From a bacterium (GTDB lineage: Bacteria > SZUA-182 > SZUA-191 > JAJRXT01), in contig JAJRXT010000134.1 in assembly GCA_024276125.1 (NCBI GenBank), positions 1 to 39,404 of the forward strand: DNA of 39,404 nt, read 5' to 3'. This document shows, one piece after another, positions 16,115 through 30,383 of this stretch; position 1 is the stretch's first letter; every line of letters starts with the position of its first letter. A model generated the notes under the pieces. It searched no databases. It was not told where the DNA came from and saw only the letters and a program-made list of their open reading frames with translations. The position numbers and the translations under genes are program-made.

Positions 16115-16400
16115 CAATGCTTTTGACTTAAGGTAGTTGTCATTCTGAATGAAGCGTAAACGTAGTGAAGAATCTGTGTACGCATATGCTAAACAATAGT
16201 TCGGTTTATCTTTGCTGTCACCCTAGAGCGAAGCGAAGGGTCTGCTAGCGTATGCTGTAGATTCTTCACTGCGCTTACGCTTTGCGGCTGTGTCGCAATT
16301 AGAAAAACTGCCTTTTTCCTGTCATTCCCACGAAAGCGGGAATCTATAACTCATTTTAAAAAACTGGATTCCCGCCTTCGCAGGAATGACAGGTAGTTGG
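16115..16400. repeat. Composite repeat block upstream of the CinA-type gene
   Basis: It starts with a family-2 end (CAATGCTTTTGACTTAAGG). It contains a diverged TGTCATTCTGA unit, a TGTCACCCTAGAGCGAAGCG unit, and at 16320-16391 a REP unit with TGTCATTCCCACG and CTTCGCAGGAATGACA arms. The first base lies only about 10 bases from the gene's start codon. The remaining gap up to 16510 shows nothing else. Confidence 0.6.
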
Positions 16401-16510: not shown

Positions 16511-16929
16511 TAGCTCATCTTACGTAAAAAAATGATGCTATTGTAGGGTGGATTAAGGGGTCTTATATTACAGATATATTTTGTAAAGAAAGAACGCCAA
16601 ATTACAAAAAAGATTACCCAGAATCCACCACGTCTACTAAGAAAGTTACTTTTTCTGTCATTCCCACGAAAGTGGGAATCTAGTCTTTTCAATATATTAT
16701 GTATTTCCGTTTTCTTAGCGCCATTTGTCGGTTATATCTTGCAGGAGCCGCCAAATGTCACAAATAATCACGGGAATGACAGAAAAATTGAGTTACAACA
16801 CAGCCTCTAAATAAGGTGGAACCGCAGCTATCAGAAGATATTGGCTCAACATAATTTTTTTTAAGCTTTTTCCCAATATCGGCTTGTTCCACCCTACATT
16901 AAGAAACAAGCTTTGCGTAACATGAGTTA
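16511..16929. mobile_element. MITE-like element, family 3 (TTACGCAAAG ends)
   Basis: The left end is TAGCTCATCTTACGTAAA and the right end is CTTTGCGTAACATGAGTTA, imperfect inverted repeats. Just inside, TAGGGTGG (16544) and CCACCCTA (16889-16896) form a second inverted pair. A TGTCATTCCCACG REP unit lies within (16656-16682). Related ends occur at 24653 and 39188. No transposase: the 61-codon open frame inside is repeat sequence. Confidence 0.6.
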
Positions 16930-24652: not shown

Positions 24653-25012
24653 CATGTTACGCAAAAGATATCTAATTCTCAGTATTTTCCCTCTCCCCTT
24701 GGGGAGAGGATCAAGGTGAGGGGGATTTTCTTTTATTTTCCCCTCACTCTAACTCTCTCCCCAGTGGGGAGAGAGGACAAAAAAAGCGTTTTGTGCTTTA
24801 TGCAAAAACCTAACCGGATACTACTGTCTAATTCTACATTTAACCGACGTATCTGTATCTTTCGTGATACTGGTTTGACCCACTCTTATATCTTGACAGT
24901 ATAGGAAATCCCATTTTTGTCGTAGATGCCGATCTTTAGGTCGGCTATCGTTTACGCTGGTCTTAAAGAGTTGCTTTGTACGTCTAACCAAGCCGACCTA
25001 AAGGTTGGTATC
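24653..25012. repeat. Repeat-filled gap before mnmE
   Basis: Family-3 end CTCATGTTACGCAAAAG at 24653-24669. A double-hairpin block (24688-24778) has CCTCTCCCCTTGGGGAGAGG and CTCTCCCCAGTGGGGAGAG cores between GAGGGGG-type arms. GCCGATCTTTAGGTCGGC at 24928-24945 and AGCCGACCTAAAGGTTGG at 24991 follow. No supported gene. Confidence 0.6.
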
Positions 25013-25115
25013 TACAGTGGCTGCAAGACAGCTCGCCCAAAGGACTTGAGATCAGGTAAAGTATAGTTTATATACCCAAAAATTTCATTTTGTGTGACAT
25101 GAGATATTAATTGTA

Positions 25116-26560
25116 ATGAGTAAAACACTCCTGATACCATTGCTGCTGTTTCCACTGCAATGGGTGCAAGCGGTATTGGAATTGTACGTCTAAGCGGGAC
25201 AGCCGCCCTTCCGATTATACAAAAAATATTTTCCCCTTCAAAAAACAATAACCAATCTGCAACACATATGTTGCGTCACTGCTATATAATCGAACCGGAG
25301 AGCAGGGAAAAAATCGACGAGGTATTAGTCTGTCGGATGATGGCGCCGCACACCTTTACCAGAGAGGATATGGCGGAAATTAATTGTCACGGCGGTATAA
25401 TTCCCTTACAAAGGATACTTGATCTATGCTTAAAATGCGGCGCAAGATTGGCTGATGCCGGTGAATTCACTAAACGGGCATATATAAACGGACGTATTGA
25501 TCTTGCACAGGCGGAAGCGGTAATTGATATAATCAATGCCAAGACGCAAGCCGCCCTAAAATCGGCTGTCTGTCAATTAGACGGGGGGTTGTCTGATAGA
25601 ATAAAGGAACATAGGGAAGAATTATTAGATATACAGGCCTTGATTGAAGCCGGTATTGATTTTCCAGATGAAGAGCTTGAAATTATACCTATTGATAAAA
25701 TCAGCGAAAAAATAAATAGTATTGAAGCTAAATTAGCCGGATTAATTAAGACCTTTGCTCATGGGCGATTATTAAAAGAGGGTATAACCACAGCTATAAT
25801 TGGTAAACCTAATGTGGGCAAATCAACGCTGTTAAATCAATTGCTAAATTGTGAGCGGGCAATTGTTACGCCGATTGCAGGTACCACCAGGGATACCATT
25901 GCCGAGGATATTAATATTGGCGGATTTCCTGTAAAATTGGTAGATACCGCCGGAATTACCAAAAGCAGCAATATTGTTGAACAGATGGGTATAAGCCGCA
26001 GCAGGAAATTAATCCAGCAGGCGGAAATGCTGTTGGTGGTCTTAGACGGCAGTATGTCTTTGTGCAAAGACGATCTTGATATACTGGAATGCGTAAAAGA
26101 TCAGCATACAAGGACTATAATAATTATAAATAAATGCGATTTACCATTAAAAATAGATAGTAAGCAGCTAAAAAAATGGATTCCTGCTTTCGCAGGAATG
26201 ACCAAAGTTATGATACAGCCTCAGGGAAAAGAGGATTTGGAGCAGGGAATTGTACATATTTGTGCTGCCTCTGGCCAGAATCTGGATAGGCTGCAAGAGG
26301 TTATGATAAAGCATATAACAAAAGACCAAAGTCTAGCCGCAGAAAGCGTGGTAATAACCAATGCCCGTCATCATCAGGCTTTACTTAGCGTACAAGAATC
26401 TTTGTTGCGGCTGAAGAATGCTCTAAAAAACGGTCTATCCGCTGAATTTTTGGCTGTAGATTTAAATGAAGCTATAGATAAACTTGGAGATATCGTGGGT
26501 GAGGCTGCCGGTGCGGACGTATTGGATCGGATATTTTCCAAATTCTGTATTGGTAAGTAG
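25116..26560 (+). CDS. mnmE: tRNA modification GTPase MnmE, with apparent frameshift at its start
   Basis: Domains: N-terminal folate-binding domain, a helical domain split around the GTPase domain. G1 GKPNVGKST lies near residue 215 counted from 25160; G2-region AGTTRDT, G3 DTAG, G4 NKCD, and the C-terminal FCIGK with the essential cysteine are all present. With MnmG it makes the cmnm5 group on wobble uridine of tRNA. The intact frame begins only at ATG 25160 (MGASGIGIV), but ten conserved codons before it read PDTIAAVSTA in the same frame. The ATG at 25116 (ATGAGTAAAA) would join them if the A-run 25122-25125 had one more A, giving MSKNTPDTIAAVSTA. Between G4 and the SASG-like loop there is an in-frame palindromic repeat (26177-26203). 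Confidence 0.9.
26177..26203 (+). repeat. REP palindrome inserted in frame within mnmE
   Basis: TGGATTCCTGC / GCAGGAATGACC matches the intergenic REP right half at 16364-16391, including the preceding A-run. In mnmE it is read W-I-P-A-F-A-G-M-T. It lies in the loop between G4 (NKCD) and G5 (CAASG), which is longer than usual for the family. Confidence 0.8.
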
Positions 26561-26604: not shown

Positions 26605-26740
26605 CAATGCTGTTGACTTTAAGATGGCTGTCATTTTGAATGAAGCATAAGCGGAATGAAGAATCTACTCGCTGTTGCGGGGGGAGATTCTTCGGCTTAT
26701 TGCCTCAGAATGACAAATAGCAGCCGACCTTTAGGTCGGC
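26605..26740. repeat. Repeat cluster between mnmE and mnmG
   Basis: Family-2 end CAATGCTGTTGACTTTAAG at 26605-26623 without its partner. A TGTCATTTTGA..TCAGAATGACA unit at 26629-26715, then GCCGACCTTTAGGTCGGC at 26722-26740. Confidence 0.65.
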
Positions 26741-26788
26741 AAGGAAGCGGGTTTAAAAACCCGTAACTACAAATGGAAATCAATCAAC

Positions 26789-29992: not shown

Positions 29993-30106
29993 TGCTTGAT
30001 ATTCTGTTTGGTTGCAATTAGAAGTAGGTTATATTATTATTGCTTAATAACACAGTGTAAGTCCAGCAAAAAAACTAGTGTTGCGTCAATGCTGTTTTAT
30101 TGGCTG

Positions 30107-30383
30107 TCATTCCCGTGAAGCTTGTCCTCATGAAAACGGGGAACTTAGAATCCATAACTTGTTTTAAAATACTGGATTCCCACTTTTGCGGGAATGATAC
30201 TAAACAGATTTTTTAGTTTTAACTTAGCGTCTATGGGGCTTGTCCCCCAATGCTGTTAAGTTAAGTTTTACATTATAATAAAAATTTCTTTTTTGTCTGT
30301 CATTCTGAGGCTGGAAGCCGAAGAATCTTCCCCCGTAACAGCGGGCAGATTCTTCATTCCGCTCCGCTTTATTCAGAATGACA
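30107..30383. repeat. Repeat cluster upstream of the glycosyltransferase
   Basis: 30107-30200 is a REP unit (TGTCATTCCCGTG..GCGGGAATGAT) with an internal insertion. 30248-30265 is a family-2 end, CAATGCTGTTAAGTTAAG; a diverged one lies at about 30090. 30298-30383 is a TGTCATTCTGA..TCAGAATGACA unit. The 458-base gap between the glycerate kinase and glycosyltransferase genes has no gene. Confidence 0.6.

Follow-up and report, generated by a model that had tools for sequence, protein, structure and literature searches.

The mnmE gene of an uncultured bacterium encodes a GTPase with a long loop between its G4 and G5 motifs, which raises the question of where the additional DNA came from and how it came to be read as protein. 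The first-pass annotation of the window, i.e. the whole stretch of 39,404 nucleotides analysed here, described a REP palindrome inserted in frame. We suggest a different history, which we consider very probable: a non-autonomous 152-bp MITE-like element entered the G4-G5 loop, and a deletion left a translated 54-nt remnant that forms a disordered loop. The features that the argument rests on are collected in Table 1.

Table 1. Position of mnmE, of the parts of its insert and of related repeat copies in the window.
Feature	Position	Strand	Remarks
mnmE, tRNA uridine-5-carboxymethylaminomethyl(34) synthesis GTPase	25160..26560	+	466 aa counted from the first in-frame ATG
Putative MITE-A right-half remnant, 54 nt	26169..26222	+	length equals the net insertion; codes for about L-KK-WIPAFAGMTKVMIQPQ
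Palindrome of the CGTC-REP type, read as WIPAFAGMT	26177..26203	+	in the mnmE frame
MITE-A right terminal inverted repeat AGTTATGATACAGCCTC	26206..26222	+	translated within VMIQPQ
Partial MITE-A with both palindromes, intergenic	16284..16396	+	model 3-112; comparison copy of the first-pass annotation
MITE-A-like copy, intergenic, diverged	16639..16807	-	model 1-124, E 1.4e-12
MITE-A-like copy, intergenic, diverged	30100..30219	+	model 32-129, E 1.1e-10

The draft genome consists of 2.98 Mb in 159 contigs and encodes one MnmE, with a TIGR00450 score of 385 bits. It has TrmE_N, the helical and G domains, the motifs G1-G5 and the C-terminal CIGK (here FCIGK), and the gene adjoins mnmG. A further inverted-repeat family flanks mnmE on both sides, at 24930-25020 and 26720-26775; it is GCCGACCTAAAGGTCGGC-like and lies beside 'GTAACTAC' / 'GTATCTAC'. 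The start region of mnmE is odd. The conserved N-terminal residues NTPDTIAAVSTA are encoded in frame at 25124-25159, upstream of the first ATG. As seen over positions 25100-25160, a stop at 25121 precedes this stretch, which has no ATG, GTG or TTG, and the nearest upstream ATG is out of frame. A sequence error, an unusual start or decay of the gene may lie behind this, and any claim that a working enzyme tolerates the insert is limited by it.

If mnmE is decaying, the insert would be a trace left in a gene that is weakened or already a pseudogene, an explanation that is compatible with an origin from half a MITE and that draws on the missing start codon and on the finding of no second MnmE in the genome. 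Against this, the remaining 466 codons are open, every G motif and the C-terminal FCIGK are present, and the neighbouring mnmG is an intact reading frame of 619 aa. The structure model described below is confident outside the insert, and the start region would be explained by an error in the draft assembly or by an unusual start. We thus regard decay as rather unlikely.

An alignment of 68 MnmE rows agrees with the first-pass annotation that the insert lies between G4 (NKCD) and G5 (CAASG), where MnmE proteins are normally about 20 residues shorter. The loop has 40 residues here and 22 in the only relative from the same family (G001), and the commonest length in the alignment is 22-23 aa. The net gain is a clean 18 aa, i.e. 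54 nt, and joining position 26168 to 26223 gives a loop of 22 residues, NKCD-LPLKIDSKQQGKEDLEQGIVHI-CAASG. It should be noted that the empty insertion site is known only at about 55-58% protein identity, from G001, a genome of the same family and another genus (mnmE locus in record JAJRUU010000235.1). BLASTP scores of the flanks-joined and the full MnmE against the closest relatives lie within 3 bits of each other and do not discriminate between the two forms; it is the aligned loop length that does. One unrelated Nitrospirae MnmE in the alignment has a 39-aa loop. We considered it as a parallel insertion and rejected it, as the DNA of that locus has no such palindrome.

The AlphaFold model of the protein, computed with 42 natural sequences as input, has a mean pLDDT of 86 and an intact MnmE fold. 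The nearest solved structures are 1xzp and 3geh (MnmE) and 9hip (the MnmE-MnmG complex). The sole segment with pLDDT below 50 comprises residues 345-360, lies within the insert, and is bracketed by a predicted helix (334-340) and a predicted strand (364-368). The insert is predicted to add 18 residues as a disordered loop to an otherwise normal MnmE.

The codons for WIPAFAGMT are TGG ATT CCT GCT TTC GCA GGA ATG ACC. That they, including the preceding A-run, are a copy of a palindromic repeat had been pointed out in the first-pass annotation, and this was borne out. The copy at 16365-16390 differs from the mnmE palindrome at 2 of 26 positions (shuffled sequence gave 0 matches), and 149 places in the genome match at no more than 3 mismatches (0 in the reversed control). 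A BLASTN search with the insert and its flanks gave more than 40 other places. In more than 20 copies the match begins at the T or the first A of TAAAAAAATGG, indicating that the A-run is part of the repeat, and matches typically end past GGAATGAC.

Among the other copies, flank conservation reaches well past the palindrome and defines a 152-bp element, here named MITE-A, with the layout GAGGCTGTGTCGTAACT ... CTGTCATTCC..GGAATCCATAACTTATTGAAAAGACTGGATTCC..GGAATGACAG ... AATTATGACACAGCCTC. In brief, both ends carry the terminal inverted repeat GAGGCTGTGTCGTAAYT, and most of the palindromes serve as its inner arms, arranged as a head-to-head pair TGTCATTCCYGCG..CGCRGGAATCCA approximately 41 bp apart. 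The MITE-A end was found at 175 places in the genome at no more than 3 mismatches, against 4 in the reversed control, and 25 of the 36 two-ended copies have an exact 3-bp target duplication (4.8 expected by shuffling). The palindrome pair has the characteristics of CGTC REPs, i.e. a (C/T)GTC tag, a stem of 8-9 bp starting with AT, a CCA-like tail and head-to-head dimers. A second element, MITE-B, has the ends of MITE-A around an unrelated interior, is 118 bp long and occurs in about 15 nearly full copies (L107, L108, L114, L137, L187 and others). In length (152 and 118 bp), lack of transposase coding capacity, terminal inverted repeats and target duplication, these elements agree with bacterial MITEs. 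Shorter variants of 97-132 bp also exist, so the ancestor of the mnmE insert need not have been 152 bp long.

We did not find an autonomous parent. The draft genome has three PF01609 matches, none of them flanked by GAGGCTGTGTCGTAAYT ends, and reading frames beside end matches in the related genomes G003 and G007 included no evident transposase when inspected by eye. A search for a RAYT gave one good Y1_Tnp, on contig C32, unlinked to GAGGCTGTGTCGTAAYT ends. The proposal that the family moves actively is not upheld: we found no autonomous element with these ends, and the copies have diverged.

The insert in mnmE is longer than a REP palindrome. Positions 26170-26220 match positions 74-150 of a MITE-A profile built from 17 other copies (nhmmer, E 3.5e-6), and downstream of the palindrome comes AGTTATGATACAGCCTC, which is the right end of MITE-A. 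The family form of this end was found at no more than 1 mismatch 34 times in elements, never outside them in 615 kb, and never in the reversed control. The closest single copy, L148 on contig C66, aligns to the insert in two blocks, with approximately 26 nt absent between them. These matches identify the insert as a MITE-A right half that has undergone an internal deletion; it has neither the left half nor approximately 26 nt of the right arm. Because of the A-run, its left border is placed only to within a few bases. An inverted left half was also considered (model 1-66, E 4e-5); this is possible in a near-palindromic element but scores below the right half. An apparent local duplication, 26207-26232 / 26300-26325, was dropped as chance, the terminal repeat accounting for the segment.

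A rival model, in line with the first-pass annotation, has a single REP palindrome, some 26-34 nt long, entering in frame, perhaps through RAYT-like mobilisation, with the next 20 nt being native and unrelated. Single CGTC REPs are indeed known inside genes (PMC3733652), the palindrome by itself gives the strongest match, and the genome has a Y1_Tnp transposase gene at C32:2187. However, 34 nt do not explain a gain of 54 nt, and the next 17 nt are the right terminal repeat of the element, which at no more than 1 mismatch is absent outside elements. Moreover, the majority of the other copies lie within MITE-A. A lone palindrome is in our view very unlikely, and 26169-26222 is better described as the right half, terminal repeat included, of a 152-bp MITE carrying a CGTC-REP pair.

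An intact element would not have been readable. Together with its duplication MITE-A adds 155 nt and shifts the frame, and its consensus has stops in six of six frames. Read in the mnmE frame, the consensus gives WIPAFAGMTD followed by a stop, and this in-frame TGA falls in the segment missing from mnmE. The comparison with the consensus suggests that the deletion is probably what made the insert readable. We propose that MITE-A, with its GAGGCTGTGTCGTAAYT ends, 3-bp duplication and inner head-to-head CGTC REP pair, entered mnmE within the surface loop that links G4 to G5, presumably moved by a transposase acting in trans. The left half and approximately 26 nt of the right arm, containing the TGA, would then have been lost, although we infer the order of these events. 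The 54-nt remnant would be translated into 18 extra residues in an MnmE that is made and working. We consider it less likely that the insert arrived as it is now than that insertion was followed by a deletion restoring the frame, or by imprecise excision, since the usual two-ended route of transposition should be closed to a copy that lacks its left end. The evidence for target duplication comes from the two-ended copies; at mnmE the left end is missing. An assembly or binning error arising from the repeat is highly improbable as the source of the insert: the draft has 159 contigs and the repeat more than 100 copies, but the sequence on either side comes from one and the same mnmE gene and is collinear and in frame, and the remnant is no intact copy but is truncated in a way unique to it.

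We surveyed 615 kb around the copies, covering 135 of the 149 palindromes and 124 merged elements. Most elements (113 of 124) touch no reading frame of at least 100 aa, such frames covering 66% of the surveyed DNA. MnmE is the sole protein with a conserved domain that has an element in its interior; at L126:2994-3049 an HTH_3 (Cro/C1-type) protein is extended at its C-terminus by a MITE-A end, which codes for its final 24 or so residues. More than half of the intact elements (19 of 36, L106-L188) sit at GAA/TTC within another hairpin repeat, which resembles ATTCTGAACGAAGCGAAGAAT. This suggests a target preference for repeats, which accounts for part of the intergenic bias, and selection need not be responsible for all of it. 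One internal case among 124 elements is no basis for the claim that selection tolerates only in-frame insertions.

In-frame insertions of palindromic or MITE sequence into proteins are already established. In Rickettsia, RPEs are palindromic mobile DNA read in frame in unrelated conserved proteins, and some families have nearly half of their copies in genes (PMC10969869). The mnmE insert resembles them, especially the CGTC-type RPE-4 and RPE-6, in adding a short in-frame peptide to a conserved protein and in its palindrome class, CGTC-REP, a likeness at the level of class. It differs in being a deleted half-element from a family with transposon-type ends and a 3-bp duplication, and in that a single element in 124 lies within a conserved gene. 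The likeness to Rickettsia drawn in the first-pass annotation stands for the outcome, an in-frame insertion derived from a repeat. Frequent location in many genes is not shared, with one internal and one C-terminal case among 124 elements.

The QMITEs of Coxiella burnetii lie for the most part between genes and in some cases extend a reading frame or interrupt it without a frameshift; functional genes are hit mainly at the 3' end, with cases in the middle of reading frames in hypothetical proteins (PMC5896051). They share with MITE-A the mostly intergenic location and the occasional in-frame effect, but differ in sequence and in altering functional genes mainly at the 3' end. Enterobacterial RU/ERIC-type units, small MITE-like repeats of 103-168 bp, also occur within genes with the frame kept (PMC2759123). 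The mnmE insert is likewise MITE-like, intragenic and in frame, and differs from these in sequence, in host and in being a half rather than a whole unit. In the literature searched, we found no report of a palindromic or MITE sequence inserted in mnmE, nor of the peptide WIPAFAGMT. What distinguishes the mnmE case is that the insert is half of a transposon-like element and not a simple palindrome. Here repeat DNA has been incorporated into a conserved GTPase; the example is well resolved and comes from outside the groups for which such incorporation has been described. A half-element with one terminal repeat and its in-frame stop deleted suggests a route by which protein insertions become readable.

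That CGTC REP pairs are nested in more than one kind of MITE shell is the more novel point. CGTC/GTAG REPs occur in DNA-repair and other genes, and CGTC-tagged REPs, which include the neisserial dRS3, form head-to-head dimers; most CGTC REPs are described as unassociated with other repeats, and how they move was left open (PMC3733652). The palindromes of MITE-A share with them the core GTCATTCC...GGAATCC(A), the stem starting with AT, the CCA tail and the head-to-head pairing. Unlike most of those described, the pair in MITE-A is enclosed by terminal repeats, in elements that have target duplications.

A search of G001 for the MITE-A end gave no match at no more than 2 mismatches. In G003, of the same class, we found a 132-bp version of the element with a TAA duplication. 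Both G001 (L204-L223) and G003 (L224-L243) have CGTC-REP pairs inside another MITE shell, which measures 133 bp, has GATGGTCTCGTAAAAAGTC at its ends and in most cases comes with a 6-bp duplication. A further shell of G001 that holds such pairs is 106-111 bp long and ends in CTAGTGTCATGTC. The GATGGTCTCGTAAAAAGTC end was matched 283 times in G008 and 21 times in the genome with the mnmE insert. CGTC REP pairs are not known to have a transposase of their own. Based on these observations we tentatively speculate, with somewhat less than even confidence, that in this lineage they spread inside several unrelated MITE shells (with GAGGCTGTGTCG ends and 3-bp duplications in the genome with the mnmE insert, and with GATGGTCTCGTAAAAAGTC ends and 6-bp duplications or CTAGTGTCATGTC ends in relatives), and that such shells, once decayed to halves, can turn into translated loops of core proteins. 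The occurrence of these pairs in different MITE shells of related genomes bears on the question of REP movement raised in PMC3733652.
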